From Candidatus Didemnitutus sp. (lineage in GTDB: Bacteria > Verrucomicrobiota > Verrucomicrobiia > Opitutales > Opitutaceae), in contig JAMPXH010000013.1 in assembly GCA_023701285.1 (NCBI GenBank), forward strand, positions 1-53,895: a DNA stretch of 53,895 bases. The letters run 5' to 3'. This document shows positions 6,101-44,907 of the stretch, piece after piece; the first letter of the stretch is position 1; every line of letters begins with the position of its first letter. Under the pieces are notes generated by a model that saw only the letters and a list, made by a program, of their open reading frames with translations, ran no database searches and was not told where the DNA came from. The position numbers and the translations under genes were made by a program.

Positions 6101-6173
6101 GGGAGGGACGGAAGCGGAGAGTGGAATCAGCCGGCGCGCGGCAGGGGGCGGAGGGCTTTGGTCTTGTCGCCAT
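3108..6173 (-). CDS. GH106-family alpha-L-rhamnosidase
   Basis: A 1021-residue secreted enzyme. GH106 enzymes hydrolyse terminal alpha-L-rhamnose. Recognisable family segments are WIWINGNVT near residue 75, GWATSGGPWN near 145, DSWEAGPQ near 325, LAEAFTSRP near 456 and the SYVHQP segment near 490. A C-terminal jelly roll (about 870-1000) contains VTLNGRPLATLWR and VANRWVNR, the GH2-like sugar-binding module typical of GH106. The ATG at 6173 overlaps the upstream small gene by 47 bp. The hydrophobic signal core starts only near residue 30, so the true start may be slightly downstream at a non-ATG codon. It probably takes rhamnose from oligosaccharides released by the other enzymes; RhaT encoded in the same locus imports L-rhamnose. 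Confidence 0.85.
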   Translation of the reverse strand: MATRPKPSAPCRAPADSTLRFRPSRRAGAWRSLLLGLALLGGGASGSALAAPPTESLATQFRAPPASAGPWVYWIWINGNVTQEGIRADLEDMRRTGIRGAMLFEGSLYLPAGPTRYGTDAWHANVQYAIRTAAEVGVEIVLMNCAGWATSGGPWNSVAQSMKMLTWSETTLDGGSSARGPLERPPAQLDFYRDVAVLAVPDRGAPVRVGALAEKTGLKSSPAASAPAEWDASATGEFAATEVVDLTALLRPDGTLDWTAPAGRWRVLRFGFTTAARKNHPAPPEGTGLEVDKLDRAAVAHHFEHALGRIVREAGPLAGRSLTGVLVDSWEAGPQTWTDAFPTEFARRRGYALTAFLPALAGHVVGDRAATEAFLADYRRTLGELYAENYYGALQELSHAHGLKLFAEPYGGVLDEPRALARVDVPMIEFWNHGLFKALDFTPGAAHLAGNPLVLAEAFTSRPPVSGWSEHPAALKTLGDAAFAAGVTGFVLHSYVHQPRSELAPGFTHGRYGTQFGRLNSWWPLAGGWFDYVKRNQLLLQHGRAVVDLLRLHEDRLKTEYREPPAPPLDGYREDNITPAQLAQLRVADGALVSAGGARYRVLQLPAQWTATAETLRELARLHAAGATLAGPAPFAPAGLPEATHARAAWDAAVAAIWRSARPPAADLATALARCGAAPDLLVRSGATGADVRFAHRASDEGDFYFLTNQSGARVTAEFDFRVGDRAPELWDAESGRIVPAAAYAVAAGRTTFTLALDAGDSLWVVFRTPRPSVWPVRVQRDGVTLPLSLRATLADAWTVENAGTYTVTFSDGHTLTHRVDAPATAQPLTAPWQVSFAAPRHAPPARTLAALGSLTEQPDTAARYFSGVATYETTFELPPANASSTARRTWLDLGAVQDLARVTLNGRPLATLWRAPFVVDVTAALQPGVNRLRVEVANRWVNRLIGDEQLPPDATYHARGNVAGALAEFPAWWHDAAAIARRERAAFSTWRFHAVDTPLLPAGLLGPVRLVMSESVPLLR

Positions 6174-6708
6174 AAATCCAGCGCTGGCCGAACGCGCGGT
6201 TCTTGATCGTGTCGGGCCAGTTGCCGAGGCCGCGCACGTAGAGATGACCGTCGAGCAGGGCGTCCCAGTCAGCGCGGAGCACGGCGGCGGCGAAGGCGCG
6301 GTTCACTTGCGCGACGCCCTCGGTGTGGGCGTGATCGACGAGCAATTCCTGCTGCGTGCGGTCGAGTGCGGCGAAGGGCCGGTCGGGAAACTCGCGTGCG
6401 AGCCACGTCGCCAATTCCGCGGCGGTGGCGGCGAGCCCGCGGCGCAGGTGCTGCTCCGCGGCGGCGGGCGTCTCGCCGGCGTGGTAAAGCGCGGCGTCGT
6501 CGACCGGACGGCCGTAGCCGATGCGCCGGCCGTAGAGCGTGGAGTAAGGGAAGAATTTTCCGTCGCGCCGGCCGAAGTCGTGCGGATTCGTGACGCTCTT
6601 CATGTAGGCCACGAAGTCGTCCGTGAGCGGGAAGGATTCGGCGGCCGGCGCGGCGGTGAAGGCGAGGCCGGCGAACGCGAGCAGGAGAAGGCGGTGGAGC
6701 GGCTTCAT
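6127..6708 (-). CDS. Small secreted lysozyme-like protein (partner 1 of large member A1)
   Basis: A 193-residue protein with signal peptide MKPLHRLLLLAFAGLAFTAA. Its ATG overlaps the TGA of the preceding large gene (ATGA, 6705-6708), implying translational coupling. It is paralogous to the protein at 14266-14877. Shared stretches are RRDGKFFPYST..GRRIGY (residues 47-65), ATAAELATWL, QELLVDHAHTEGV and IKNRAFG.RWI near the C-terminus. The pattern 'Y-S/D-x-x-G-x-x-IGYG ... Q-x-x-LVDHA-x-x-G' recalls the T4-lysozyme/GH24 fold. However, no Glu occupies the usual catalytic position before the FPYS segment. A non-catalytic or altered lysozyme-like protein is therefore the best guess; the function is unknown to me. 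Confidence 0.75.
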   Translation of the reverse strand: MKPLHRLLLLAFAGLAFTAAPAAESFPLTDDFVAYMKSVTNPHDFGRRDGKFFPYSTLYGRRIGYGRPVDDAALYHAGETPAAAEQHLRRGLAATAAELATWLAREFPDRPFAALDRTQQELLVDHAHTEGVAQVNRAFAAAVLRADWDALLDGHLYVRGLGNWPDTIKNRAFGQRWIYGDKTKALRPLPRAG

Positions 6709-9686
6709 GGGCGGAGCGTGACGGCGGGGGCGTGCTCGACGCGCTGGGCGGCGGTCTCGACGGCGAAGTCGAGTTCGAGCGGGCCGGCGCCTTCCGTGTA
6801 GGGCGGAGAGAATTCGTAAGGGAAGATCGCGTCGTGCAGCTCCATCCATTCGCCGTCGCCCTGGCGGTAGCGCAGCGTGGCGGAGATGGTGTCGTCGGGC
6901 AGCGCGTCGGTGTAGACGAAGGCGCTGGTGAGGTCGCGGCCGGGCGAGAGCAACTGGGCGTAGACGCGACCGAACGGCGCCTGCACCTGTGCGAAGCTCT
7001 GCGGGCCGAGCGGCGCGGCGGCGGGATCGAAGAGTTTGGCGTGCAGCTGCGTGCGGACACGCGCGCCGTCGAGCGCGAAGGCGACGATGCCCTTGGCGGG
7101 CACGCGCACGGTGAGCGCGGCGGCGGCGAAGGGTTGCGGACCGGTGGAGCGGTTGTCGCGCCAGATCTCCATCCGCGTGACGCCGCCCAGGTCGACGCGC
7201 GCGGGATCAAGCGCGACGGTGAGCGTCTCCTCGGTGAAGGACTGGTTCCAGAACGCGAGGTAGAGCTTCCCGTTGCCGTGGCCGGCGAGGTAGTCGAACT
7301 GCCGGTGGTCGCTCGTGACGAGCCGGCGCGGCAGCCAGAGGTGCACGCCTGCGTCGCCGTAGAAGCGGCCCGGGCGGTCGCCGTAGGCGCGGCAGCGGAA
7401 GGACGTGCCGGGCATCGGGCGACCGGGAAAATCGATCGCGCCGCGCGAGCGGTGGAAGGCGTCGCTGACGAGGAAATCGATCACCTCGCCGGCGAATTCC
7501 CACGCGTGACCGGGGTTCACGGTGGCGAAATTCCAGTCCCAGACCGGTCGCTCGATGGCGTCGGCGTGCTCGGGGATGAGCGAGAGGTTGGAGCGATTGT
7601 CGCCGGGATAATTGCCGAAGCGGCCGACCATGCCCCAGCGCGCGATGTCGCGCAGGAAATCGTCCTGTGTGAGGGTGGCGAGCCGCATGAGCTGGCCGTG
7701 ATGGTTCATCCAGTATTCGCCGCGGTAGGCGGGCGACTGCAGGCCGGTGAGCGAGAGGCGCCACGCGGGCACGCTTTGCTCGGGCGATGGGACGCCGCGC
7801 GGCGGCTGGAAACCCCAGAGGCGGTGGCGGCCGAAGGAATGCTCGTGCACCGCGACGCGGCCGCCGGCGTCGGCGACGAGTGTGCCGTCCGGCGTGGCGG
7901 GCGAGAGGTTGATCGTGGTGCTGAGGCCGTAGGCGCCTTCCTGCGCGGCGCCGAGGTAGCGTGGCTCGCCGGTGGCGAGGTAGAGTTCGAGCCAATCGAG
8001 GTAGTCGTCGCCTTCTCCGGTCGGTCGGCGTTGTTTCAGCTCCGCGTCGGCGGCGCGGCGGGCGGCGGCGAGGTCGGCGGGATCGCCGGTGAGTTCGTGG
8101 CGGGCGAGGAGGGCGGTGAAGTCCTTCGCGTCGAAGCCGGCGTTCCGCGCGGCGGCGGCGATGAGCGGCGTGCGGTGGCCGTAGAAGCCCGCGAGCTGCA
8201 CGAGTTGCGCGGCGTTGAGGTAGGGGCGGCCGAGCTCGCGGTTGCGCGCCTTCACCTGGCCGTTCTGCTCGACCTCGTAGGGAGCGAAGGTGTTGTTGGC
8301 CCGCGAGAGCGCGAACTCGACCTGCGGCAGGGCGCGCGACCAGTAGAACTCCTCGTCGTCGGTGACGATCGCGGCACCGAGCCCGAAGAGCGGCGAGAAG
8401 GGTTTGAAGATGCCGGAGTTGTCCGTCCAGTAGTCGTAATATTTCTGCTCGGCGTGCCAGAGCGCGCGGTTGCCGCCGCGGCGGTCGGCGAGGAAATCCA
8501 TCGTCGCCTCGAGCGTGCGGTTGAGGGAGCCGGGGCCGGAGTTGTCGCGCTGGTCGCGGAAGCCCGCGTGCGTGCGCGCGAGGTAAACGTAGGTGTCCTT
8601 CCAATCTCCCGGGCGCACGACGCAATGCAGCGCGAAGTTGCGCACGTCGCCGGCGGCGAGGCGGGATTCGGGGCCGCCCATGATCGGGGCGAAGGAGACG
8701 GGCCGGAGGCGGTCGTCGGCGAGCTGGAGCATCAGGCCGAAGCGCGAGTTCTGGCGCACGGGGATGCGGAAGGGCGATTCGCGCGCGTCGACGACCAGCG
8801 CGGTGTTCCACGCGCCGGTGGCGAGGTGCGCGCGCGGGAGGCGGAGGAAGGCTTCGTTGACGAGGTGGTTGAACTGGCGGCGTCCGCGCCCGGCGCATTC
8901 CTGCGGGATGGACAGCGCCTGCGGTCGCGGCAGGTCGGGCGCGCCGGTGAAGGCGACGGAATACCAACCGGGCGCGTGCGCCACGAGGCGGTGTTCGATC
9001 CGCGGATCGGCGTCGCCCGCGGGCAGCGTGAGCGTGGCGGTGAGTGTGAAGCGGTCGGTCGGGGCGAAGTCCCAATGCACGGTGCGGCCGGCGAGGCGGA
9101 CGCGCGGGGTCGCGAGATCGGTGCGCTCGCCAGCGAGCAGCGGGTTCGTGGTGCCGCGTGCGTAGGCGCCACTGACGCGGAGCGCGACCTTGCCGGCGTT
9201 GTCGCGGTAGGTCCAGGTGCGCGCGCCCTTGGCGTCGGCGGTGACGACGGCATCGTAGCGCCGGAGCTCGCGTTCGACGGGCGAGGAGAGGCGGCTGTTC
9301 AGCGCGCCGAGTTCCTCCTCGTAGGCGGTCCAACGCGGCGCCGTGCGGGGCGCGACGTGATAGTTCTGGTGGTTGACGTGGTAACCGGGATCACGGTCGC
9401 TGCTCAGCACGGCGAAACGCGGTTGCACCGTCTGCGGCGGCACGCCGTCGATGTGCAGCGTGACCGTGCCATCGTCGGCGAGGTCGAGGCGGTAGCGGTC
9501 GTTGGTGAGCGTCGCGGCGGCGAGCGCGGCAAACGTCAGCAGGAAGACAGCAACGCCGCGCGCGAAAATGGCGCGCGACCCACGCGGCGGAGTGGCGGTC
9601 GGGACGACCGCCGCTACCGGAGGGCGGACCGTGCGGAGGTCGGAGCCAACGTTATCGGGGTGCACGACCGAAGGCGGTGAATTCAA
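6705..9686 (-). CDS. Large secreted beta-sandwich/alpha-toroid protein A1, function unknown
   Basis: Up to 993 residues. It belongs to a family with four clear members in this window. It has an N-terminal beta-rich region opening with NDRYRLDLADDG, a central helical part (about residues 380-770) and a C-terminal beta domain. Conserved landmarks are VPAWRLSLTGL, NHHGQLMRL, VGRFGNYPGDN, NPGHAWEFAGE, SRGAIDFPGR, YGDRPGRFYG and HLWLPRR. This layout is common in polysaccharide lyases and some glycosidases, but I cannot assign a CAZy family. Its closest relative is A2 (14884-18252), which has an extra C-terminal module missing here. The first ~40 residues are odd: they are encoded by a hairpin repeat (9594-9612) and precede the signal-like core AVFLLTFAALAAA, so the start is uncertain. 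The GH43 stop lies 35 bp inside the frame. Confidence 0.8.
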   Translation of the reverse strand: MNSPPSVVHPDNVGSDLRTVRPPVAAVVPTATPPRGSRAIFARGVAVFLLTFAALAAATLTNDRYRLDLADDGTVTLHIDGVPPQTVQPRFAVLSSDRDPGYHVNHQNYHVAPRTAPRWTAYEEELGALNSRLSSPVERELRRYDAVVTADAKGARTWTYRDNAGKVALRVSGAYARGTTNPLLAGERTDLATPRVRLAGRTVHWDFAPTDRFTLTATLTLPAGDADPRIEHRLVAHAPGWYSVAFTGAPDLPRPQALSIPQECAGRGRRQFNHLVNEAFLRLPRAHLATGAWNTALVVDARESPFRIPVRQNSRFGLMLQLADDRLRPVSFAPIMGGPESRLAAGDVRNFALHCVVRPGDWKDTYVYLARTHAGFRDQRDNSGPGSLNRTLEATMDFLADRRGGNRALWHAEQKYYDYWTDNSGIFKPFSPLFGLGAAIVTDDEEFYWSRALPQVEFALSRANNTFAPYEVEQNGQVKARNRELGRPYLNAAQLVQLAGFYGHRTPLIAAAARNAGFDAKDFTALLARHELTGDPADLAAARRAADAELKQRRPTGEGDDYLDWLELYLATGEPRYLGAAQEGAYGLSTTINLSPATPDGTLVADAGGRVAVHEHSFGRHRLWGFQPPRGVPSPEQSVPAWRLSLTGLQSPAYRGEYWMNHHGQLMRLATLTQDDFLRDIARWGMVGRFGNYPGDNRSNLSLIPEHADAIERPVWDWNFATVNPGHAWEFAGEVIDFLVSDAFHRSRGAIDFPGRPMPGTSFRCRAYGDRPGRFYGDAGVHLWLPRRLVTSDHRQFDYLAGHGNGKLYLAFWNQSFTEETLTVALDPARVDLGGVTRMEIWRDNRSTGPQPFAAAALTVRVPAKGIVAFALDGARVRTQLHAKLFDPAAAPLGPQSFAQVQAPFGRVYAQLLSPGRDLTSAFVYTDALPDDTISATLRYRQGDGEWMELHDAIFPYEFSPPYTEGAGPLELDFAVETAAQRVEHAPAVTLRP
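9594..9612. repeat. REP-like hairpin at the GH43/A1 gene junction
   Basis: GGCGGTC-GGGAC-GACCGCC is a perfect 7-bp stem. Its flanks also look repetitive (GCGCGCGACCCACGCG to the left, GCTACC to the right). It resembles the hairpin at 23101-23122 in having a GC stem and a TCCC-type loop on the minus strand. It lies inside the predicted N-terminal extension of A1. Confidence 0.5.
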
Positions 9687-11166
9687 GGACTCCGATCTGC
9701 ACGCCGGCGGGCGCGCCGACGATTTCCAGTTTCAAGCGCCGCGCGAGCACGGGCGCGAAGGTCCGGTAATCGATGACGAGATCGGTCGTGTTGCCGCTGC
9801 AATCCAGCGCGACCTGCCAGGTGTCGCTGCGCTTGGGTTGATAGAGCAGACGGTAACGCACGGGGCCGCCGAGAATGTTCTGCTTGTGGTCGAGGTTGGG
9901 CTCCGCCCAGAGGACACGGATGCCGGCGACGTCGTAGGTGGTCTTGAGGTCGACGATGAGCGACGGGTTGGCGTCGTCGGGCGCGGGTTGCCACCAGGTG
10001 CGCGCGCTGTCGTCGATCGCGTAGTCGGCGGTGCGGCCGGGCGCGACGCTGCTGCCTTGGGCGATGGTGCGGACGCTGACGGGGAGCCAGCCAGCCTCGT
10101 TGCCCTTGTCGGGATGAGGGTTGGTGCCGGGGGCGAGTTGCGGGACATCGCGCACAGGCAGGCCGACGAGATCGCCGTCGGCGTCGATGCCGACGGGGTA
10201 GAGGCCGACGCGGCGTTCGAAGACATGGTAGTTGCCCACGACGCTCGTGACGAAGGCCCAGAGCGTGTTGTTCGGGCCGCGCACGATGGAGCCGTGGCCG
10301 GCGCCCGGGACGACTCCGGTGGTTTTGCGCAGGACGGGGTTTTTCGCCTGATACGTGAAGGGGCCGAGCGGCGACTTGCCCTTGTAGGCGCCGAGCGCGT
10401 AGGTGCCGAGCGCGGTGCCGGGGCCGGTGAAGGTGAGGTAGTAGGTGTCGCCGTGTTTGAACATCCAGCCGCCTTCCATGAAGCTGCGGCGCGGGTCCTC
10501 GTTGTATTCGCCGTAGTGCTCCCACTCCTGATCGGGGCGGAACGCGGCGAGTTTCTGCGGCACGCCGACCATGCGCGTGGGCTGGGCGGAGTTCAGCTCG
10601 ACGCCCACGAGGGCGCCGGCGACGTGGTAATAGAGATAGAGCCGGCCGCCGTCGGAGAACAGCATCGGGTCGAAGATGACGCGGTCGATCGGGTTGGTGC
10701 CGTCGGCGGCCGTGACCGGACCGAGCGACCGGAAGGGGCCGAGCGGGCCGTCCGCGACGTAGAGCTCCGAGAAACAGCCGACGAGGTAGAACTTGCCGCC
10801 GTGCTCAGCGACGCTCGGCGCGTAGCCGTCGCCGATCTTGCCGGGCGTGACGTCGACCTTGCGCCACGTGATGAAATCCTCGCTCACGTAGGCCATCGCG
10901 ACGGATGGATACATGATCCACTTACCGTCGTGGTAGATGACGGACGGATCGGCGAGTTCGCGGAAGTCCTGCACGTAACCCTTCAGCCAGCGGTCGAGCG
11001 AAGGCGAGGGCTTCTGCGTCCAGTTACCGAGCGGGTAATCGGGCAACGGCAGCGGATTCACGAACGTGTTGGCCAGCGGACCGGCCGGCGCGGGCGGCGG
11101 AGGCGCGGCGAAGGCTGGTGCGCAGGCTGCGAATGCGAGGGCGGCGAGGGAGAGGAGGCGCGGCAT
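9652..11166 (-). CDS. GH43-like glycosidase with C-terminal discoidin-type domain
   Basis: 504 residues with a signal peptide to about residue 20. The five-bladed propeller signature of GH43 is visible. D73 in LADPSVIYHDGKW is the candidate base, D166 in IFDPMLFSDGGRLYLYY the pKa modulator, and E231 in FMEGGWMFKHGDTYYLTF the acid; GHGSIVRGP follows. Family members usually remove alpha-L-arabinofuranose, beta-xylose or beta-galactose; the specificity here is not readable. From about residue 365 an F5/8-type-C-like module follows (YAIDDSARTWWQP ... YRLLYQP ... RLKLEIVG), probably for carbohydrate binding. The gene starts 8 bp after the B1 stop and overlaps the A1 start by 35 bp, so it is an internal operon gene. 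Confidence 0.85.
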   Translation of the reverse strand: MPRLLSLAALAFAACAPAFAAPPPPAPAGPLANTFVNPLPLPDYPLGNWTQKPSPSLDRWLKGYVQDFRELADPSVIYHDGKWIMYPSVAMAYVSEDFITWRKVDVTPGKIGDGYAPSVAEHGGKFYLVGCFSELYVADGPLGPFRSLGPVTAADGTNPIDRVIFDPMLFSDGGRLYLYYHVAGALVGVELNSAQPTRMVGVPQKLAAFRPDQEWEHYGEYNEDPRRSFMEGGWMFKHGDTYYLTFTGPGTALGTYALGAYKGKSPLGPFTYQAKNPVLRKTTGVVPGAGHGSIVRGPNNTLWAFVTSVVGNYHVFERRVGLYPVGIDADGDLVGLPVRDVPQLAPGTNPHPDKGNEAGWLPVSVRTIAQGSSVAPGRTADYAIDDSARTWWQPAPDDANPSLIVDLKTTYDVAGIRVLWAEPNLDHKQNILGGPVRYRLLYQPKRSDTWQVALDCSGNTTDLVIDYRTFAPVLARRLKLEIVGAPAGVQIGVLEFTAFGRAPR

Positions 11167-11174
11167 GGCGGGAC

Positions 11175-14063
11175 TCACTTGAGCAGCACGCGACCGACGG
11201 GGGATTTTTCCACGCGACCGTCGCGCAACTCCACCTCGACGTAGAACTCGACGGGCGCGTCGCCCGCCGTGGGGATCGTGTAATCGAACGGGTAGGCGCG
11301 ATCCTCGCGCGCGGTGTAGGCGCCGTCGCCCTGCCGGTGATGTAGCGTGCAGCGCACTATCTCGCGCTCGAAGTCGGGCAGGTAGGCGTAGATGCTGGTG
11401 AGATCGCCGGCGCCGAAGCGCATCGCCACGGCGCGCGCGCCGCGGAAGCCCAGCTCGCACACGCTGCCCTTGGCCGGGAGCGGCGGGACGTCGCGGGCCA
11501 GCGCCTGCTGCTGGAAGCGGACCTTCGCCTGCGCGCCCTCGATCACGACCGCGCTGACGCCTTCGGGGCTCACTGCGATTTCGAAGCTGCCGTCGGCGGC
11601 GGGCGTCGCGACCGGGCCGGGCTGGCCGTCGTGCCAGACGCGCAGACGCGCATCGGGAGCGAGCGCCACGAGTTCCGGCGCGAGGCGCACGCGGCTGGTG
11701 ACGGTGGATTTGGACTGGTTGGTGAACGCGAGGGCGACGCGATTGTCGCCGCGCGCGACGAGGTAATTGAGCTCCGGATGCGCGACCTGCGCGACGCCGC
11801 GCGGCATCCACAGGTGCAGGCCGGCGGTGTCGTAGATCTTGCCCGGGCGGTCGCCGTAAATCTTTTGCTGGAGGTAGCCGTAGCCCTCGGCGTAGCGGCT
11901 CGGGAAATCGATTGCGCCGCGCGATTTCGCGTAGGCGTCGGACACGAGGTAATCGAGCACGAGCGCGATCTGCGGCCAGATGTGGTTGTAGTGGATGGAC
12001 GTCATCGCGTTCAGCTCGTCCTTCGGGCGCTCGGCGAAGTCGGGCTTCATGTAGGCCGTGGTGCGCGCGGTGTTGAGGTGGTAGCCGGGGAAGCTCGTGT
12101 AGCGGCCGATGACCGCGGAGCGCGCGACGTCGTGCAGGAAGCGGTCGCCGGTGAGCGCGGAGAGGCGCAGCATCCAGGGCGCGTAGCAGGCGAGGAGGAT
12201 GGCGCGGTGGCCGCGGCTGGTGCCGGAGGATTCCGGCGTGAGGCCCATCTCGGAAATCAGCCACGCGGGCACGCGCTCCTCGGCGAGCGGCACGCGCGGG
12301 AATTTCGGGCCGGAGCGGTAGTTGGGTGCGAAGCCGCCCTCGTTCACCGTGACTTCGCCGTCGGAGATCGCGGGCGCGAACCAGATGTAGCGCGTGTAGT
12401 TGCGCGCGCCCTTGCGGGCCGCCTCGAGGTAGCGGGCGTCGCCGGTGGCTTCGTGGAGTTCGAGCAGCTCGATCCACTGCGGGGCGAACGAGGTCCAGAA
12501 GAAGAGTCCGCGCGAGTCAGGGTCCTCGAAGTTCGCCGGCGGAGTGTCGATGCGCGTGCGGAGATAGTCGTCGGCGTCGCGCTTGGCGCGCTCGAGCCAG
12601 GATTTGTCGCCGCTCGCATGGTAAAGCGCGAGCGAGTTGGCCCAGAAGGCGCCGCGGAGCTCGGAGACGAGGTTGAGCACCCGGTTCTGACCGAAGAGCG
12701 ACTGCGCGGTCTGGAGAAAGAACGGCGTGCGGCCGCCGGCGAGTTCGTGCAGCGCGGCGTATTCGGAGAGCGGGGCGCCGAGGCCGCCGAGGCGCGAGGA
12801 GACGGACTGGCCCTTGGCGTTGGGATCGATCGAGAAGAGGAAGCGTTCGCGTGAGACGAAGAACTCGGCCAGCGGACGCGCGAGCGTGTCGAAGATCACG
12901 CGGTCGTCCGTCACGAGGGCGAGCGAGTAGGGGTGCAGCGCGGAGACGTTCTTCACCGAGCCGGGCACGTCGGTGTCGTAGGCGAAGCCGCGCAGGTCGG
13001 CGTTGAAGCGCGCATGTTCGCTCAGGCCGAATTGCAGCATGCGCTCGAAGGTGGCGTTCAGGGAACCGAGGGCGTTGTGGCGCACGTCGGCGAAGCCGAA
13101 GCTCGTGCGCGCGAGGTGTTCCTGCGTGGCGTCGATGTCGCGATGGGTGACGACGAGCCGATGGGTGAAGGAGAACTCCGCGCCGGCAGCGAGCTTCGAG
13201 CCGGCGCCGCCGAGGATGGGCGCGAACAGCATCGGTTGCGCTTCGCCTGCGCGGTTGCGCAGCGCGACGCCGAAGCGCGAGGCCGCAAAGACGGGCAGCG
13301 GTTGGAAGGGCAACTCGGCCGGGTCGGCCATCACGCCGACCGTCACGCCGGCGCGGCGCACGAGCGTGGTGGGGATCGTCAGGCGCGCGGAGGCCTCGAG
13401 GAAGGAGCCCTCGGGGAAGCGGCGGTCGATGTAGATGAGCGGTTGCCAGAGTTCCTCGATCTCCGCCGGGGCGCAGCGCGGCGCGCCGGTGTAGCCGAAG
13501 GAATACCAGCCCGGCTGCGTCACGCGCGCGCGCAGCGTCAGGCGCGGCTCGGTGCCGTCGGCCGCCGGTGCGAGCTCGGCGCTGAGGGAGACGCCGTCCG
13601 TCTCCGCGAAGGTCCAGAGGATGCGGCCGCCTTCCTCGCGCGCACCGGTGGCGCGCAGCGTTGTGACCTTGCCCGCCTGGAACAGGTTGGGTGAACGTCC
13701 TGCGCCGTAATGGCGGTCGGCGTCGGGATCGTAGCCGTCGGCGACATGCTCGTCGGTGACGACGGCGTTCGTCGGCTTGCCCCAAGTGAGAACGTGGTAG
13801 ATGGAGCCTTGGTCGCCGCTCGCCAGGCCCTTGTCGGTGTAACGGCCCCAGCGGGTCTGCAGATTCGGGTTCTGGGCGGCGTAAAGCAGGGTGAATTCCG
13901 GGGCGAAGCGCGCGCGGGCGCCGTCGGGCGCGACCACCTCGACCGAGGCGTCCGTCGCGAGGACCAGGCGGTGCGCAGGGGCGGCCGCGTGGCCATGCAC
14001 AGCCACGAGGGCGAATGAAGTCAGGACGAGGGCGCGGCGCAGCCAGCAGGGAATCGACAGCAT
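11175..14063 (-). CDS. Large secreted beta-sandwich/alpha-toroid protein B1, function unknown
   Basis: 962 residues from the ATG at 14063. This start gives the signal peptide MLSIPCWLRRALVLTSFALVAVHGHA; the ATG at 14120 would add a charged 19-residue leader and is disfavoured. It is the same family as A1, but closest to B2 (26135-29008). Shared segments are VPAWLISEMGLTPESSGT, GHRAILLACYAPWMLRL, IGRYTSFPGYHLNTARTT, YNHIWPQI, DYLVSDAYAKSRGAIDFPSR, YGDRPGKIYD and LHLWMPR. Conserved His, Tyr and Arg residues in the helical core are the type used by toroid-fold lyases, but no catalytic assignment is proven. First gene of the six-gene minus-strand operon, reading away from an operator at 14168-14181. 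Confidence 0.8.
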   Translation of the reverse strand: MLSIPCWLRRALVLTSFALVAVHGHAAAPAHRLVLATDASVEVVAPDGARARFAPEFTLLYAAQNPNLQTRWGRYTDKGLASGDQGSIYHVLTWGKPTNAVVTDEHVADGYDPDADRHYGAGRSPNLFQAGKVTTLRATGAREEGGRILWTFAETDGVSLSAELAPAADGTEPRLTLRARVTQPGWYSFGYTGAPRCAPAEIEELWQPLIYIDRRFPEGSFLEASARLTIPTTLVRRAGVTVGVMADPAELPFQPLPVFAASRFGVALRNRAGEAQPMLFAPILGGAGSKLAAGAEFSFTHRLVVTHRDIDATQEHLARTSFGFADVRHNALGSLNATFERMLQFGLSEHARFNADLRGFAYDTDVPGSVKNVSALHPYSLALVTDDRVIFDTLARPLAEFFVSRERFLFSIDPNAKGQSVSSRLGGLGAPLSEYAALHELAGGRTPFFLQTAQSLFGQNRVLNLVSELRGAFWANSLALYHASGDKSWLERAKRDADDYLRTRIDTPPANFEDPDSRGLFFWTSFAPQWIELLELHEATGDARYLEAARKGARNYTRYIWFAPAISDGEVTVNEGGFAPNYRSGPKFPRVPLAEERVPAWLISEMGLTPESSGTSRGHRAILLACYAPWMLRLSALTGDRFLHDVARSAVIGRYTSFPGYHLNTARTTAYMKPDFAERPKDELNAMTSIHYNHIWPQIALVLDYLVSDAYAKSRGAIDFPSRYAEGYGYLQQKIYGDRPGKIYDTAGLHLWMPRGVAQVAHPELNYLVARGDNRVALAFTNQSKSTVTSRVRLAPELVALAPDARLRVWHDGQPGPVATPAADGSFEIAVSPEGVSAVVIEGAQAKVRFQQQALARDVPPLPAKGSVCELGFRGARAVAMRFGAGDLTSIYAYLPDFEREIVRCTLHHRQGDGAYTAREDRAYPFDYTIPTAGDAPVEFYVEVELRDGRVEKSPVGRVLLK

Positions 14064-14167
14064 GAGTGACTTGAGTTGGGGATTCGGGACGAGTCGGGCA
14101 GGGGAGACCGACCGGGACAACGCCGACCGCTTACCGTTTTTGCGGCACGCTGGGGAGGCTGCCGCAG

Positions 14168-14181
14168 CTCAACGGTTGACG
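14168..14181. promoter_or_regulatory. Operator 2: CTCAACGGTTGACG
   Basis: The core TCAAC-G-GTTGA is a perfect odd-length palindrome in the 202-bp gap between divergent B1 (start 14063) and the small gene (start 14266), about 90-110 bp from each. One site can therefore control both directions. Confidence 0.65.
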
Positions 14182-14265
14182 AGGGTGGAAATTGCGGACG
14201 CGGTGGAGCGCGGTTTCTTTGATCGTATCCTCATCGCCGAGGCCGCCACCCCTGTTTTTCACCCC

Positions 14266-14877
14266 ATGATTTGCCGAGTGCCATGTCCGCGCTTCCTGCG
14301 CGCGGTGCTCTTGTTCGCTTTGCTCGCCGGCATCGGCGGGGTCGCCGCGCCGCGCGCGCAGGCCGCGCCCTACGAGCTGACGGAGAGCTTCGTGCTTTTC
14401 CTGATCGAGGGCCGCAATGCCCACACCGCCGTCTCGGCGCGCAAGGTCAGCGTGATGAACCTCGGGATGCGCGCGGATGGGCGCTTCTATCCGTATTCGA
14501 CGCCGAAGGGACGGCGCATCGGTTACGAGCTGCCGCTCGAAAGCGTCTTCGACCACACGCGTGGCATCACGCGCGCGGAGGCCGATGCGCGCCTGCGCGC
14601 GGCGGCGTTGGCGACCGCGGCCGAGCTGGCCACGCGGTTGCCGCAACTCTTTCCCGGTCGCAACTTCGAGCAACTCGACCTCGCGGGACAGGAAATGCTC
14701 GTCGACCACGCGCTTTCGGAGGGTGTCGATAATTTGCCGTCGGCCTTCGTCGAGGCTGTGTATGCGCCCGATCGCGTCGCGCGGCTCGGCGCCGACGGCC
14801 TGCATCTGCGTTGGTGGGGCGGGATGATGCAGATACTGAAGAACCGCGCCTTCGGTTACCGTTGGCTGGGCAACTGA
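14266..14877 (+). CDS. Small secreted lysozyme-like protein (partner 2, of large member A2)
   Basis: 203 residues; the signal peptide ends near residue 34 (RAQAAPYEL). It is paralogous to 6127-6708: ADGRFYPYSTPKGRRIGYE (70-88), ATAAELATRLPQLFP, QEMLVDHALSEGV and ILKNRAFGYRWLG. The sequence pattern resembles GH24/T4-lysozyme-like proteins. E48 (FLIEGR) is the only Glu near the expected catalytic place. It is separated from the YPYS segment by a ~20-residue insertion and is not conserved in the paralogue. The gene lies 6 bp upstream of A2, so they are co-transcribed, in the reverse order to the A1 pair. Function unknown; an accessory factor or co-enzyme for the large protein is an inference from the repeated pairing. 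Confidence 0.78.
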   Translation: MICRVPCPRFLRAVLLFALLAGIGGVAAPRAQAAPYELTESFVLFLIEGRNAHTAVSARKVSVMNLGMRADGRFYPYSTPKGRRIGYELPLESVFDHTRGITRAEADARLRAAALATAAELATRLPQLFPGRNFEQLDLAGQEMLVDHALSEGVDNLPSAFVEAVYAPDRVARLGADGLHLRWWGGMMQILKNRAFGYRWLGN

Positions 14878-14883
14878 ACGACG

Positions 14884-17800
14884 ATGCACCCGCGCCGCGC
14901 TCTGCTCTTTCTCGGCCTCGCGCTGCTGCTCGGCGGCACGGCGGTCGCGCAGACTTTCCAGAACGATCGCTACACGCTGACGCTGAACGGCGACGCCACG
15001 ATCACGGTCGCAGTCGCCGGCGTCGCGACGCCGCACGTGCTCGCGCCGGAGTTTGCCGTGATGTTCAGCGCCACCGCGCCGGGCTTCAACGAGAACCACG
15101 ACAACTACTACCTCGCGCCCCGCACCTCCCTCCTGTGGACCGCCTACGAGATCCCGGCGGACGAACTCAACACCACGCTCAACACCCCGGAGTGGCGCAC
15201 GCAGCTTTCCTATCCGGTGCGCGTGGAAGGCAGCGGCGCTTCGCGCACCTGGACCTATTACACGAACGACACGCTCTCCGTGGTGAAGCTCGCCATCAGC
15301 GGCACCTACGCGCGCGGCACGATCGATCCGTTCCGCGCGGGCGTGCGCCACGCGCTGCGCGCCGCCGGCGCGAGCCTCGACACGAGCGCCGCGGGCACGA
15401 CGGTGACGTGGACCTTCACTGACGATGCGGCGCGGCCCTTCACCTTCAGCGCCAGCCTGCTGCTGGCCCCCGGCGACGAGTCGCCGCGCATCGAGACGCG
15501 GATCGTCGCACGCACCGACGGCTATTACATGGCGGCGTTCACCGGTGTGCCCGGCGTCGCGTCCGCCGATTACGTCGTCGGTCCGCAGGATGCGCTCGGC
15601 GCCAACAACAAGCATTTTAACCACGTCGTGTGCGAGGGTCAGCTCATGCTCCCGCGTGCGCAGGTGACCTCGAAGGCCGGCTGGAGCGCGGCCATCGTCA
15701 TCGATCCCAGTGAAAGTTATTTCACCGATGCCGCCGGCGATCCCCGCGCGCCGACGCGCGCGAACTCGCGTTTCGGCGTCATGCTGCAGCGGCAGGACGG
15801 GCAGATCCGCCCGCTCGCGTTCGCCCCGCTGCTGGGCGGCGCGGAGTCGCAGCTCGCCGCCGGTGCGGAGCGCCGGTTCCGCGTGCGTTACGTCGTGCAA
15901 CCCGGCGGCTGGAAGGAGATCTATCGCCACGTCGCCGAATCCGTCTTCCATCTCGACGATCCGCGCGACAACACCGGCACCGGTTCGCTCAACCGCACTT
16001 TCGAGCGCGTGATGGATTACCTCGCCGATCGCAACGGCCGGAACCACGCGATGTGGCACGCGGAGCAGAAATACTACGACTACTTTTCGGACCAACCCAA
16101 CTCCTTCAAGCCGTTCTCCCCGCTCTTCGGGCTCGCGGCAGCCGTCATCACCGACGACGAGGATTTTTATTGGCGGCGCGCACTGCCGCAGGTGGAGTTC
16201 GGCCTGTCGCGCGCGAGCAACACCTTCGTGCCCTACGACACCGAGGACACCGGCCTGCTCAGCAACCCGAGCCGCAGCCTCGGCTCGCCTTACCTCAGCT
16301 CGGTGCAACTCGCGAGCCTCCACGCGTTCTACCAGCAGCACGTCGACGCCTTCCGCACCCTCGCGACGGAGAAGAATTTCTCGACCAGCGTCTTCGCCCA
16401 ACTGCTGGCCAAATATGCGCTCACCGGCGCGCCGGCCGACCTGACCGCCGCGCTGAGCCGCGCCAACGCCCGCCTCGCGAGCGACCCCACGGGATTCAGC
16501 GACCACTACATGGACTGGCTCGACATCTGGGAGGCCAGCGGCGCGACGCCCGCGCAGCGCGATCCGCGCTACCTCGCCGCCGCGCTCAACGGCGCCTACG
16601 AATGGGCTGCGCGCACCGCGGTCCTATCTCCTGCCGTCCCGGCGACGGAGATCACGGTGGATCGCGGCGGCCGCGCCCCGGTCCACGCACACTCGCTCGG
16701 CCGCTGGCCGCGGTGGGGATTTCCCGCGCCGCTCGGCTACCCGACGCCCGAGCAGACGGTGCCGGCCTGGCGCGTGGCGCTCACGGGTCTGGCGTCCGAG
16801 GCGTATCGTGGCGAGTTCTGGCTCGATAACCACGGCCACCTGATGCGGCTCTCGCACCTCGCGGGCGGCGACACCTTCCTGCGCAGCGTGAGCCGCTGGG
16901 CGATGGTCGGGCGCTTTGCGAATTATCCCGGCGACAACCGTTCCGTCCCCTCGCTCGTGATCGAGCGGCCCGAATTGCCCGACCAACCGATGTGGTTGCT
17001 CAGCCACGCGACGATGAATCCCGGGCACGCGTGGGAATTCGCGGGCGAGATCCTCGATTTTCTCGTGTCGAATTTCTACACGCAGTCCGGCGGCGCGATC
17101 GATTTTCCCGCGCGTTCCATGCACGGCGGCGCCTTCCGCGTCCGTCTCTACGGTGACCGCCCCGGCCGCTTCTACGGCGACGAGGGCGTGCGGCTCTGGC
17201 TGCCGCGCGGGCTCGCCACACTGGACAACCCGCAGGTCGATTACCTCGCTGGCTACGGCAACGGCCGCCTCTACCTCGCGTTCATCAACCAGGCGGCCTC
17301 GCCGCAGACCGTCAGCGTCGCGCTCGATCCCGCGCGTGTCGGCGCGTGGTCGGGCATGGCCGGGCGCCGTTGGGTGAACAACGACGCGGCCGCACCGATG
17401 GGTTTCAGCGGCAACACGCTCCCGGCCTTCACCATCCCGGCGCGCGGCCTCGTGGCGTTCGCGCTCGACGGCGTGACGCCGCGCACGGCGCTGCAGCGGC
17501 GCATGCTCGACGTGGCCGCGCCGAAGCTCGGGGCGGCGGCGCTTTCCCGCCAGACTTTCCCCGTCGGCGGCACGACCGCGAAGGTGAACGCGATGCTGCT
17601 CTCCCTCGGGCGCGGGTTGACCAGCGCCTTCGTCTACACCGACCTGCTGGCGGAGCGCGTGATCTCCGCGCGCCTGCGCTACCGGCAGGGCGGCGATGCG
17701 GCGTGGCAGGAGCGCACCGACGAGATTTTCCCGTTCGAGTTTTCCATTCCGTTCGCGGAAGGCCGCGGCGCCTTCGAGGCTTATCTCGAGCTGACCGTGC

Positions 17801-18252
17801 CCGACGCCGAGCTCGGCTCCGTTGTCGTGACGGCCCCCGTCCTCACGCTGGCGACGGAGAACGCCTACGCCAGTTTCGCCGCCGGCAACGGTCTGGCGAC
17901 GTCTCCGCAAGGCGGCCCGCTCGCGGATGCCGATGGCGACGGCGTGAGCAACCTGCACGAATTCTTCCTCGGCAGCGAGGCGACCGCGGCCGACCGCGTG
18001 CGCTGGCCGGAGTTGCACCTCGCGGCGAACGGCGAGCCGGTCTTCGCCTTCACCCGCCGCACCACGGCCGCCGGCGTGGCCTTCGATGTGCAGCTGTCGC
18101 AGGATCTCGTCACCTGGGTGAACCTCGCCGGCAGCGAGGATGAGAGCCTGTTCGAGATCGTGGCCGAGACCGGCAGCCTCGAGCGTCTGTCGCTGCGCCT
18201 CTTGCCGGAGCTGGACCGCTTTTTCCTGCGCCTGCGCGTCGTCAACGAGTGA
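14884..18252 (+). CDS. Large secreted beta-sandwich/alpha-toroid protein A2 with C-terminal Ca-loop module
   Basis: 1122 residues; signal peptide MHPRRALLFLGLALLLGGTA, then AQTFQNDRYTL. It is homologous along its length to A1: PRTSLLWTAYE, EQKYYDYFSDQ, VPAWRVALTGLAS, NHGHLMRL, VGRFANYPGDN, NPGHAWEFAGE, GAIDFPARS, YGDRPGRFYGD and LWLPRG. About 150 extra C-terminal residues (from ~975) begin FAAGNGL and contain DADGDGVSNLHEFFLG, a calcium-loop motif. They then run into a beta domain of the kind often attached to secreted verrucomicrobial proteins. The beta-repeat protein at 47134 carries a related tail. Catalytic activity is unknown; the architecture suggests a lyase or glycosidase. The pair 14266-18252 seems to be a two-gene unit controlled from operator 2. 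Confidence 0.82.
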   Translation: MHPRRALLFLGLALLLGGTAVAQTFQNDRYTLTLNGDATITVAVAGVATPHVLAPEFAVMFSATAPGFNENHDNYYLAPRTSLLWTAYEIPADELNTTLNTPEWRTQLSYPVRVEGSGASRTWTYYTNDTLSVVKLAISGTYARGTIDPFRAGVRHALRAAGASLDTSAAGTTVTWTFTDDAARPFTFSASLLLAPGDESPRIETRIVARTDGYYMAAFTGVPGVASADYVVGPQDALGANNKHFNHVVCEGQLMLPRAQVTSKAGWSAAIVIDPSESYFTDAAGDPRAPTRANSRFGVMLQRQDGQIRPLAFAPLLGGAESQLAAGAERRFRVRYVVQPGGWKEIYRHVAESVFHLDDPRDNTGTGSLNRTFERVMDYLADRNGRNHAMWHAEQKYYDYFSDQPNSFKPFSPLFGLAAAVITDDEDFYWRRALPQVEFGLSRASNTFVPYDTEDTGLLSNPSRSLGSPYLSSVQLASLHAFYQQHVDAFRTLATEKNFSTSVFAQLLAKYALTGAPADLTAALSRANARLASDPTGFSDHYMDWLDIWEASGATPAQRDPRYLAAALNGAYEWAARTAVLSPAVPATEITVDRGGRAPVHAHSLGRWPRWGFPAPLGYPTPEQTVPAWRVALTGLASEAYRGEFWLDNHGHLMRLSHLAGGDTFLRSVSRWAMVGRFANYPGDNRSVPSLVIERPELPDQPMWLLSHATMNPGHAWEFAGEILDFLVSNFYTQSGGAIDFPARSMHGGAFRVRLYGDRPGRFYGDEGVRLWLPRGLATLDNPQVDYLAGYGNGRLYLAFINQAASPQTVSVALDPARVGAWSGMAGRRWVNNDAAAPMGFSGNTLPAFTIPARGLVAFALDGVTPRTALQRRMLDVAAPKLGAAALSRQTFPVGGTTAKVNAMLLSLGRGLTSAFVYTDLLAERVISARLRYRQGGDAAWQERTDEIFPFEFSIPFAEGRGAFEAYLELTVPDAELGSVVVTAPVLTLATENAYASFAAGNGLATSPQGGPLADADGDGVSNLHEFFLGSEATAADRVRWPELHLAANGEPVFAFTRRTTAAGVAFDVQLSQDLVTWVNLAGSEDESLFEIVAETGSLERLSLRLLPELDRFFLRLRVVNE

Positions 18253-24645: not shown

Positions 24646-25794
24646 ATGGAACACCCCTCGCTACAGGAGACTTTCACCCGGGTTTATGGCCGTCCGGCCA
24701 CCGTCGTCGCGCGCGCCCCCGGGCGCATCGAGTTCGTGGGCAACCACACCGACTACAACGGCGGCGAGGTGCTGGGCGCGGCGATCGACCGCTTCGTCTG
24801 GGTCGCCGCGGCGGAGAACGACACCGGCCGCTGCCGCTTCCACACCGTGGGCGGCGAGAATGTCGTCGAGTGGTCGCCGGAGATCGCCGCGCGCCCGGCT
24901 GGCGACGAGGCCTGGATCAATTACCCGCTCGGAGTGTGGCACAGCTTGGCTGACTTCGGCTTGGCGCGTCCGGCCGGCTTCGACGTCGTCGTCGCGGCCG
25001 ATCTGCCGGCGGGCGCCGGCTTGAGCAGCAGCGCGGCGCTCGAACTGGCCACCGCGCTCGCCCTGCTCGCGCTGGCCCGCACCGCGATCCCGGGCAAGGA
25101 CGTGCTGGCGAAGATCGCGCGGCACGCGGAGAACCGCTACGTCGGCGTGCCCTGCGGCATCCTCGACCAGGGCACGAGCGCGCACGGCGAGGCCGGCCGG
25201 CTCGTGCGGATCGACTGCCGCGGTCCGCGTTTCTCGCTCGTGCCGTTGCCGGCGGGTCTGACGCTGTGGGTCTTCAACACGCGCGAGAAGCACGCGCTGG
25301 TCGACGGCATGTATGCGACGCGGCACCGCGAGTGTCTCGAGGCCGCGCGCCTGCTCGGCGTGGAATTGCTGTGCGACCTGCAACCGGGCCCGGCGCTGGA
25401 CACCCGGCTGGCCGCGCTACCGGAAAATCTCCGTCGGCGCGCGCGCCACGTCATCGAGGAGCACGATCGCGTGGGCCGCGTCGTCGCCGCCCTCCAGCGG
25501 GGCGAGATCCGCACCGTGGGCGAACTGCTTTTCGCCTCGCACGCCAGTTCGCGCGACTTGTTCGAGAACAGCACGCCGGCGCTCGACACCTTGGTGGAAC
25601 TGCTGCGCACGCAGCGCGGCGTCATCGGCGCGCGCCTGACCGGCGGCGGCTTCGGCGGCGCCGTGATGGCGCTGACGGACGACAGCTTCACGCCGGCGGA
25701 TGCCGCGATCGTGCAGCGCGCCTACGCGACGCGGCACAGCCGCGAGCCGGAAGTCATCAAGCTCGCCGTCGCCGACGGGGCGTGCCTGCTCTGA
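24646..25794 (+). CDS. galK: Galactokinase
   Basis: A 382-residue cytoplasmic GHMP kinase, first step of the Leloir pathway: galactose + ATP to galactose-1-phosphate. The galactokinase signature is G26-R-I-E-F-V-G-N33-H34-T-D36-Y-N-G-G40. The phosphate loop LPAGAGLSSSAAL starts near 121, the catalytic Asp is D174 in VPCGILDQ, and the third GHMP motif LTGGGFGG lies near 330. Position 33 is Asn where most galactokinases have Glu (GEHTDY). The length is normal. It is divergent from the LacI gene and alone on its strand up to the 340-bp gap. It shows that galactose is one product of the degraded polymer; galT and galE are not in the window. Confidence 0.93.
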   Translation: MEHPSLQETFTRVYGRPATVVARAPGRIEFVGNHTDYNGGEVLGAAIDRFVWVAAAENDTGRCRFHTVGGENVVEWSPEIAARPAGDEAWINYPLGVWHSLADFGLARPAGFDVVVAADLPAGAGLSSSAALELATALALLALARTAIPGKDVLAKIARHAENRYVGVPCGILDQGTSAHGEAGRLVRIDCRGPRFSLVPLPAGLTLWVFNTREKHALVDGMYATRHRECLEAARLLGVELLCDLQPGPALDTRLAALPENLRRRARHVIEEHDRVGRVVAALQRGEIRTVGELLFASHASSRDLFENSTPALDTLVELLRTQRGVIGARLTGGGFGGAVMALTDDSFTPADAAIVQRAYATRHSREPEVIKLAVADGACLL

Positions 25795-25859
25795 TCGCGT
25801 CCGTGTCGCGTGGATGCCGGGCCGCATCCGGGATGCGCAGCGGGGCGGGTGGGGCGTTC

Positions 25860-25874
25860 GGTCAACTGTTCACC
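25860..25874. promoter_or_regulatory. Operator 6 (distal): GGTCAACTGTTCACC
   Basis: One mismatch to GGTCAACTGTTGACC. It lies 260 bp upstream of the B2 start and 202 bp (216 bp centre to centre) before the proximal operator. Confidence 0.6.
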
Positions 25875-26075
25875 CTGAGGCCCGTTGCCCCGGTGCGGGC
25901 GGGCTGGCGTTATCGTTTCGTTTTGCTGTCCTCAGGTCCGTCGGGTGCCCCAGTTTACGCCCGCCGGCCCGCCTCCCAACTCCCGGTTCAGTCCTGCTTT
26001 TGCCCATGTGGTTTCCACGTCTGTTCGTCCCGCCCTTCCGCTCGATCTGCGTTGCTTCCGACGGTGCCCGCTTGA

Positions 26076-26090
26076 GGTGGACTGTTGACC
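26076..26090. promoter_or_regulatory. Operator 7 (proximal): GGTGGACTGTTGACC
   Basis: The right half is perfect and the left half has two changes (CA to GG). It is 44 bp upstream of the B2 start. With the distal site it could form a repression loop over the promoter of the nine-gene operon. Confidence 0.6.
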
Positions 26091-26134
26091 GAGCCCCGGC
26101 TCGTCGTCCGGCCCGGAATGAGAAGGCTCGGGGC

Positions 26135-35463: not shown

Positions 35464-35477
35464 TCTCCGTTTTCGTC

Positions 35478-38400: not shown

Positions 38401-38546
38401 AGTATCGGTTGAAGTCGTGGTTTGATGCGCGCACGCACGCGCCCGGCCCGCACCGCGTGCGCGTCGAGCAGATCTCGGGCGCCGCCGACGACCGCGAACT
38501 GCTCCTGTCCGGCCTGCTGTTCTCCGGCGACGACTCCACTCCTTGA
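35478..38546 (+). CDS. GH97 glycosidase fused to an SGNH-type esterase
   Basis: 1022 residues from the ATG at 35478; hydrophobic signal region to about residue 35. Residues ~35-635 form a complete GH97 enzyme: N-terminal super-sandwich, barrel with GRSVWRWWSAGTGT and VDDGWKDW, then C-terminal sandwich. Candidate nucleophile D404 (VKLDFLN) and acid/base E459 (GIRGVELNK) are 55 residues apart, the spacing I recall for the retaining alpha-galactosidase branch, unlike the inverting SusB branch. From ~665 an SGNH domain begins: G-G-S674-I-T, FAVNDGG with block III Asn, and D840-G-T-H843-P. A final beta domain (~910-1022) ends the protein. Probably removes galactosyl and acyl groups from the same substrate. 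Most GH97 proteins end near 650-700 residues, so the fusion is unusual. Confidence 0.9.
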   Translation: MLSFATLFRRAGALAGVACCAAALPLAVVAAAPLTLSSPDGTLRGEFATDASGALVWSLSRFNQPLLEPARVGVTVDGVDLGAGVSLGEAERGAIDETYPLHGGKAQAVNRARTLRVPVRNRAGALAFTLEARAYDDGFAWRAIVPGAEGQTRRVNGEASSWKLPVRSRVWFFERPNDWKLKSYAGEWMSTPVENLPKVSKVGPVQGTPLVVELAEQSGYLLLSEAALANYSGLRLRALPEGRVVQADFTEGEKGFAVRGEIVTPWRATIAVRTLDQLVNSTLIPNLCPPPDARLYADTSYIKPGRSVWRWWSAGTGTPAEERAFVDYAVELGFEYTIVDDGWKDWPDAWQEIRAITAYARERRVGVLLWKDYKDVASPADDWAQLRGFLDEVAAAGAAGVKLDFLNAESKDRVDFTLAALRLAAERRLLVNFHGVTKSTGEARTFPNEITREGIRGVELNKMREGPIPAWHNAALPYTRFVVGAGDYTPLAYSRPGPTTWAHQLATVVQFLSPLQCIAEHPEMLLRDPATQPALDVLKAIPATWDETRVLAPSVLGQLSVIARRSGGTWFLSVLNGDEPVRLERLDLSFLGDGRYRAVELTSPERTGFVRREVAAVTAQTPWSLALAAGDGVVVQFLPAAPVMGEAQPRTGVPNFHAKASAGGAVRVAYLGGSITAANGWRTGTRAQLQRTYPQAKVEEIFAAVSGTGSPLGVARLQRDVLAHRPDLLFVEFAVNDGGLDPARIERAMEGIVRQTWAQFPECDIIFVYTIARGMLPDYTAGRMNRSATAMERVAAHYGIPSIAFGFEVARRVAAGEWVFSADKSVGLKDAEGRGVFSHDGTHPNELGHELYTEIVARHWPAIAQAARPAPHEPGAALRADNWGRAGIKPVGELQASADWTELARDDKRITFHAGRLAPPTWRSATAGATVEGIVHGSVIGVLGYKNEKSSLFRVYVDDLPPVEGSFRDQPLGPQYRLKSWFDARTHAPGPHRVRVEQISGAADDRELLLSGLLFSGDDSTP

Positions 38547-44816: not shown

Positions 44817-44907
44817 CGCGGGCCGTTTGTTGCCCGCCTGGATGTGTCCTAAAAAGACTCTGTTTCGTGCAGTGTGCACCGTTGCTCACCCCTCAACCCC
44901 ATCCCCC

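Follow-up and report, generated by a model that had tools for sequence, protein, structure and literature searches.

In the GH24 family of T4-type lysozymes and endolysins, the catalytic residues are Glu11, Asp20 and Thr26 (T4 lysozyme numbering): the glutamate stands at the end of helix A, the aspartate in an AYxD hairpin, and the threonine just before an IGxG motif. Folds of the lysozyme type are also found in proteins with other tasks: SpmX acts in cell polarity, and alpha-lactalbumin, an animal protein of the C-type lineage with a transferase as its partner, is the specificity factor of beta-1,4-galactosyltransferase. Passages in the literature refer to SpmX as a co-opted, 'detoxified' phage lysin with a GH24-like domain (PMC11476376) and treat alpha-lactalbumin as a lysozyme-superfamily protein without catalysis (PMC7511926). 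Here we analyze a stretch of 53,895 nucleotides from Candidatus Didemnitutus sp. (Verrucomicrobiota, Opitutaceae; contig JAMPXH010000013.1 of assembly GCA_023701285.1, positions 1 to 53,895), referred to below as the window, in which two small proteins of predicted lysozyme fold, S1 and S2, are each encoded next to a large protein, A1 and A2. In the open-licence literature, we found no report that links a lysozyme-like domain with polysaccharide utilization loci or with Opitutaceae, and the titles and abstract beginnings of that literature on pseudoenzymes and lysozyme folds do not name the pairing.

The interpretation that we favor, with reasonable though far from complete confidence, is that S represents a lysozyme-fold module, apparently devoid of the muramidase residues, that serves as a dedicated accessory subunit or domain of the A-type proteins.

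Pairing of S with A-type proteins

The S1 gene (193 residues; positions 6127..6708, minus strand) shares the tetranucleotide ATGA with the stop codon of A1 (up to 993 residues; 6705..9686, minus strand; the listed start is a TTG codon, and the true start may be internal), a 4-bp overlap. S2 (203 residues; 14266..14877, plus strand) ends six bases upstream of the start of A2 (1122 residues; 14884..18252, plus strand). A sequence-only reading of the window had noticed both junctions, and had pointed out that the gene order is reversed (A before S in the first pair, S before A in the second) while the pairing is kept; we confirmed each of these observations. The two small genes are paralogous, with 44% of 188 aligned columns identical between S1 and S2 (pair E 1e-28), and both proteins begin with a hydrophobic stretch that looks by eye like a signal peptide. 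Between A1 and A2, the identity is 51%.

A survey of the gene neighborhoods of the small family assembled 16 copies of S: two each in the window and in genome G049, one each in G245, G246, G147, G222, G223, G126, G556, G648, G852, G873 and at locus L023, and a 41-residue fragment in G873. The S of G126 and the fragment, which lies at a contig start, were left out as contig-edge cases, leaving 14 testable copies from 12 genomes; the list of A-type proteins equals that of S minus these two entries (n = 14). For all 14 testable S copies, an A-type gene lies no more than about 120 bp away or shares the reading frame, and all 14 A-types have an S partner, either adjoining or fused. S homologues residing mostly away from A-type genes, which would have spoken against the pairing, were thus not what the survey found; the adjacency exceeds chance, as it recurs in every copy that could be checked. 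Since S stands beside A or is fused to it in each of these cases, both probably work as one unit.

Twelve of the 14 A-types were recovered by a search with A1 that made no reference to S (nine in a same-family set and three more in a phylum draw); those of G873 and L023 were first met via their S. In the same-family set of 252 genomes, S is present in eight, seven of which also possess an A-type protein (>840 bits to A1); the eighth is G126, in which S sits at the end of a contig and an A-type was not found, and this genome, being 67% complete, speaks neither for nor against the pairing. The bit scores of the A1 search leave a wide gap between the A-types (844-2305) and a related group of large proteins that we call B-type (at most 375); B-type matches (E<=1e-80) without S occur in 30 genomes of the family. 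In the draw of 387 genomes from the phylum, apparently one and the same for both searches, the S profile and A1 led to an identical set of four genomes (G000, G556, G648, G852), and further draws yielded two genomes from an order draw of 372, three already known ones from a class draw of 146, and three from an order of 28. No A1 match at E<=1e-30 was seen in near relatives that lack S (G604, G871, G872 and eight genomes of family f70). Among named bacterial genomes, a scan located S at six loci, which belong to Candidatus Didemnitutus, three metagenome-assembled genomes (MAGs) of Opitutaceae, one Verrucomicrobia MAG and one Lentisphaerae MAG; five of them are the same contigs as those of G049, G245, G246, G222 (identical with L025) and G873. 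It should be noted that only 2-23 candidates were scored per genome in most of the large draws, so that absences in these draws are soft. Weak S matches in G132, G174, G075 and G048 (E ~1e-4) were rejected: by eye, their translations are of low complexity or come from unrelated frames, and the PYS..GRRI motif is absent from them.

The physical form of the pair varies. Eight separate pairs with the order A before S were measured, taking as the start of S the first methionine before the hydrophobic stretch: the genes overlap by 4 bp in five of them (the first pair of the window, G049, G648, G556, G873), and are spaced by 3 bp in L021, 3 bp in L022 and 5 bp in G147. Where S precedes A, in the second pair of both the window and G049, 6 bp lie between the genes. 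In L023 (1153 residues), L025/G222 (1153 residues) and G223, A and S form one continuous frame with S as the C-terminal domain. In G852 (L076 1-2415), it is a GH95 glycosidase (Pfam GH95 catalytic domain, E 5e-148) that carries S at its C-terminus, and A is the next gene; the earliest possible start of this A gene overlaps the stop codon of the GH95-S gene by 4 bp, and a later start lies 116 bp on. An FN3 spacer was considered for the G223 fusion (L073 6715-10584), in which about 100 residues between A and S look FN3-like by eye, and was dismissed for want of a Pfam match at E<=1. In L021, a MAG, an in-frame TAG (7894-7896) splits the A-type gene into frames of 653 and 352 residues, through either pseudogene formation or an assembly error.

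These forms bear on the idea of S as a dedicated chaperone for the folding or export of A. A separate small gene, the strict pairing and translational coupling would all suit a chaperone, but S is covalently part of four proteins (three A-types and one GH95 enzyme), one would not expect a dedicated chaperone to survive as the covalent C-terminal domain of its enzyme or on a GH95 protein, and the B-type relatives manage without S; we therefore judge this idea to be highly improbable. Because covalent A-S and GH95-S forms exist, a subunit or accessory domain is the likelier of the two.

The two families also diverged together. Pairwise distances among A and among S proteins are correlated (Mantel r 0.947, 0 of 20000 permutations; 13 of the 14 pairs, the second G049 pair being omitted since only part of its A-type sequence was available), and five groups are common to both trees: {window 1, G049}, {G245, G246}, {window 2, G223}, {G556, G648, G873} and {G222, L023}. 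Vertical inheritance alone would also yield a high correlation of this kind; the paralogous second pair, however, points to a linkage beyond mere vertical inheritance. Given the shared tree groups and the matching distances, the pair was probably duplicated and inherited as a unit. The inference drawn in the sequence-only reading from the conserved pairing, namely that both proteins act together, hence gains support from the mutual presence of A and S in all testable copies, the 4-bp overlaps, the fusions and the co-divergence.

Predicted fold and conserved residues of S

An AlphaFold2 model of S derived from nine sequences (predicted local distance difference test, pLDDT, 82; predicted template modelling score, pTM, 0.76) was compared with structures in the Protein Data Bank (PDB) by Foldseek, and the top matches were the DLP12 endolysin (E 9e-3) and T4 lysozyme (E 1.3e-2), with a probability of 1.00 and TMt values of 0.55-0.59 for the first three matches; no PDB match was obtained at E<=0.001. 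VIA-align superimposed 136-145 residues with Z 10.6-11.5 and root-mean-square deviations (rmsd) of 2.9-3.4, although Z values below about 13 may, as the tool itself warns, reflect an arrangement common in helical proteins. A peptidoglycan hydrolase and a phage endolysin both reached Z 11.5 (best match: rmsd 3.0, 136 residues aligned), the muramidase domain of SpmX 11.4, and T4 lysozyme 10.7. In a library of viral protein models, the best match was a phage lysozyme (E 3.3e-5). As modelled, S is thus a member of the T4/GH24 lysozyme fold.

At the level of sequence, neither phmmer nor hmmsearch with S found a lysozyme in the PDB; Pfam and NCBIfam contain no match at E<=1 for S1, S2, A1 or A2; Pfam at E<=10 returned for nine S members only Pesticin (E 0.26, one of nine) and no PF00959; and a search of 29 relatives, the own genome included, with PF00959 gave 0 matches; of the controls, 3 of 14 were recognized. 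The possibility that S is a prophage remnant was rejected: one scan of viral contigs with the S alignment found no relative, and in PHROGs S1 had a single weak match, to an unknown family (E 0.021).

When S was aligned by hhalign with ten GH24 sequences, its PYS[TSA] motif fell on the AYxD motif; the catalytic aspartate would accordingly be replaced, the aligned position being Thr in 12, Ala in two and Ser in one of the 15 S sequences. The position of the catalytic threonine is held by Arg62 in 15/15 sequences. At the end of helix A, which the local profile alignment leaves uncovered, a glutamate occurs at column 38 in only three of the 15 sequences, followed by glycine in two of these (S2 and its orthologue), and Asn41 is invariant (15/15). 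This residue mapping derives from a local profile alignment that is itself weak (single-pair E 4e-4, probability 35%; 4% in global mode). Taken at face value, the catalytic Glu, Asp and Thr appear to be replaced in S by Asn, Thr/Ser/Ala and Arg, respectively, so that S is probably not a muramidase. Further invariant residues are Tyr55, Ser56, Arg61, Glu121, Asp125, Asp147, Arg159, Asn170 and Arg176, and Asp49 is present in 14/15 sequences. Such strict conservation despite the apparent loss of the lysozyme catalysts suggests that S binds a ligand or a partner.

Two further explanations have to be weighed against these data. A functional muramidase that opens the peptidoglycan locally for the export or anchoring of the large A protein would be in keeping with the lysozyme fold of S; yet the GH24 catalytic residues were not recovered in the alignments and S is tied to one type of protein in every testable case, and we find this explanation scarcely credible. 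Alternatively, S might have rebuilt its catalytic centre and be active, as a new glycosidase or lyase on a lysozyme fold that treats the same glycan as A, one step earlier or later. The invariant acidic residues Glu121 and Asp125, the near-invariant Asp49 and the invariant Arg, Asn and Tyr residues could serve such a centre, the GH95 fusion places S at home beside a catalytic domain, and lysozyme folds can shift their specificity, as reported for DslA (PMC7511926). Yet the Glu/Asp/Thr motif of GH24 was not recovered, the isolated Pesticin hit is all that Pfam offers, and Glu121 and Asp125 lie within a long helix of the model and may be structural. We consider an active enzyme of this type to be unlikely, but it deserves to be kept in view.

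The A-type proteins and their genomic setting

The fold of A1 was approached through its fused homologue from L023, whose whole-length model (1153 residues, 17 sequences; pLDDT 82, pTM 0.80) consists of a beta-sandwich (~28-352), a helical barrel (~360-720), beta domains reaching to ~965, a low-confidence linker, and S (~1000-1149). The N-terminal part resembles the beta-sandwiches of sugar-processing enzymes, with a highest Z of 17 and a Z of 12 for galactose mutarotases, and this domain dominates the fold search with the whole fusion. Over the full length, GH127, GH94 and PL26 match only loosely, and the PL26 and GH94 matches, which have a high rmsd (VIA-align against PL26: Z 14.6 over 482 residues, rmsd 25.9), were not counted as a sign of family. 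No solved relative of A1 was found by sequence at E<=1; the best profile match of A to a solved structure, YteR (E 0.003), covers about 65 residues of a helical hairpin and signifies a general (alpha/alpha) barrel only. The Pfam model for GH127 does not match A1 or A2 at E<=1 (cut-off 24.9 bits); at E<=10, five of 12 members of the A, B and C types match, the best of them, a C-type protein, with a sub-threshold 21.4 bits. No relatives of A2 were found in plasmids at E<=1e-5. As these fold likenesses are loose or short, we refer to A as a probable (alpha/alpha)-barrel carbohydrate-active protein without a Pfam family, presumably an enzyme, and do not give it a family name.

The window carries three further relatives of A. 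B1 (981 residues as listed; 11175..14120, minus strand) and B2 (25700..29008, plus strand; an open frame as listed, with a signal-peptide-like start at 26135) share 30-31% identity with A1 and A2, and the third and more distant one is C (868 residues; 32857..35463, plus strand), the protein with the sub-threshold GH127 match. It had been claimed that B-type members lack a small partner. This holds insofar as neither B1 nor B2 has an S of its own, but not for every neighborhood: S2 is separated from the listed start of B1 by only 145 bp in divergent orientation, and in L021 and L022 S1 lies between A1 and the B1 orthologue. The absence of a partner is therefore a property of the B type rather than of each locus. 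The last ~120 residues of A2, which A1 does not possess, are DADGDGVSNLHEF-like and resemble, by eye, a stretch near the end of the protein encoded at 47134-49311.

The window as a whole is a glycan-utilization cluster with two genes of the GH106 rhamnosidase type, a RhaT-like rhamnose symporter, GH43, GH97, GH2 and a borderline GH16, along with GDSL and SASA esterases, a TonB-receptor plug protein and a LacI regulator. GH95 is encoded in the same stretch as the pair in L021, L022 (by similarity), L023, G147, G223 and G222, and is fused to S in G852; GH29-type genes occur in L023 and G873, and GH106 in the window, G049, L021 and G147. In G556 and G648, two genomes of another family, A is directly preceded by a right-handed beta-helix protein (L074:9037-11091 and L075:12124-14253; 74% identical to each other). 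The use of fucose and rhamnose by Verrucomicrobiota (PMC8857213) fits this setting, and the pair is not mentioned in the available part of that paper. Two features of the window stand apart: a single open frame at 34857-38546 joins a GH97 enzyme with a GDSL esterase domain, and the reading frames at 44827-46905 and 47134-49311 encode tandem, mutually similar, repetitive proteins that look exported, the first with a PEP-CTERM-like tail by eye.

That most pairs are found inside larger clusters with GH106, GH43, GH95 or GH29 genes would be expected if A and S were merely co-regulated parts of one glycan cluster whose products never touch. However, the neighbors vary from locus to locus and the pair stays constant, no other gene type of the window having been detected in the analyzed stretches of L023, G556, G648, G852 (5.8 kb only) and G873, and the fusions and 4-bp overlaps are hard to account for by co-regulation; we regard this explanation as improbable. 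The changing neighbors and the constant pair rather mark A-S as a conserved core, mostly in a deoxyhexose-glycan setting.

Proposed role and comparison with known systems

Together, these data led us to the following proposal. S would derive from, or have converged with, the phage-type lysozymes of GH24, and would be exported beside A or translated as its C-terminal domain. A would be an exported and probably carbohydrate-active protein, with a galactose-mutarotase-like beta-sandwich at the N-terminus, an (alpha/alpha) barrel and C-terminal beta domains, that acts in clusters for rhamnose- and fucose-containing glycans. The remodelled cleft of S (Asn41, Tyr55-Ser56, Arg61-Arg62, Glu121, Asp125, Arg159, Asn170), which these conserved residues may line, probably holds the glycan or shapes the site of A, with which S would be in physical contact. 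The analogy is with alpha-lactalbumin, which shows that a lysozyme fold without catalysis can serve an enzyme acting on carbohydrates. Of the three roles for S that the sequence-only reading had left side by side (chaperone, subunit, or one half of a two-step enzyme), an accessory subunit or domain agrees best with the data; the covalent forms speak against a chaperone, and a second enzyme of the lysozyme type is disfavored because the GH24 catalytic residues are missing.

Several points weigh against our favored interpretation of S as an accessory module of A. Besides the modest Foldseek and VIA-align scores and the weak residue mapping already described, the S family is small (15 sequences from 13 genomes, many of them drafts or MAGs), so that the invariance of its residues partly reflects shared ancestry; the conserved Glu121, Asp125 and Asp49 could mean that S has kept a different kind of catalysis; in the model of the L023 fusion, which defines no A-S interface, the linker joining A to S is of low confidence; and G147 and G852 are placed differently in the A and S trees, with weak support.

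We also entertain, tentatively and with more doubt than belief, a bolder version of this accessory role: a phage-type lysozyme fold that has lost its catalytic triad would serve a new family of polysaccharide-degrading enzymes as their obligate specificity subunit and would move freely between a separate gene and a fused domain. Alpha-lactalbumin would then have a counterpart in bacteria, of independent origin and from a different lysozyme lineage. If S does set the specificity of A, it would provide a handle on how bacteria of the Verrucomicrobiota type attack rhamnose- and fucose-rich glycans. Here a lysozyme fold has apparently been recruited to partner an enzyme that degrades glycans, and nature offers the pair in both split and fused form; the example is clean and testable, brings to notice two families, S and A, without a Pfam or NCBIfam match, and provides a simple annotation rule, as a B-type relative that carries S can be annotated as A-type.

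Among the known systems, the GH24 lysozymes and endolysins such as DLP12 RrrD and T4 lysozyme resemble S in overall fold, length and the position of the Tyr-containing hairpin motif. S differs from them in that it lacks a PF00959 match, shows neither the catalytic Asp and Thr at the aligned places nor a conserved Glu where helix A ends, and separates helix A from the hairpin motif by about seven additional residues, as judged by eye; moreover, it is tied to A-type genes and had no relative in the scan of viral contigs. The A-type proteins share the layout of beta-sandwich and barrel, as well as weak profile and fold similarity, with the (alpha/alpha)-barrel enzymes of GH127, GH94, GH105 (YteR) and PL26, a comparison made by fold and profile; unlike these, A1 and A2 cannot be placed in a family by Pfam or NCBIfam. 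With the carbohydrate-binding modules of multi-modular carbohydrate-active enzymes, S has in common that it is C-terminal and joined through a linker in three A-types and also occurs on GH95, but it has a lysozyme fold, is often encoded by a separate gene, and its glycan binding is putative. SpmX, whose muramidase domain is among the close structural matches of the S model (Z 11.4), is likewise a case of bacterial reuse of a GH24-like domain, whereas S appears to be exported together with a carbohydrate-active protein. Alpha-lactalbumin differs from S in lineage (C-type), host (animal) and partner (a transferase), and we claim no homology between them; what both would share is a catalytically dead lysozyme fold which, as we propose for S, acts through a carbohydrate enzyme as its partner.

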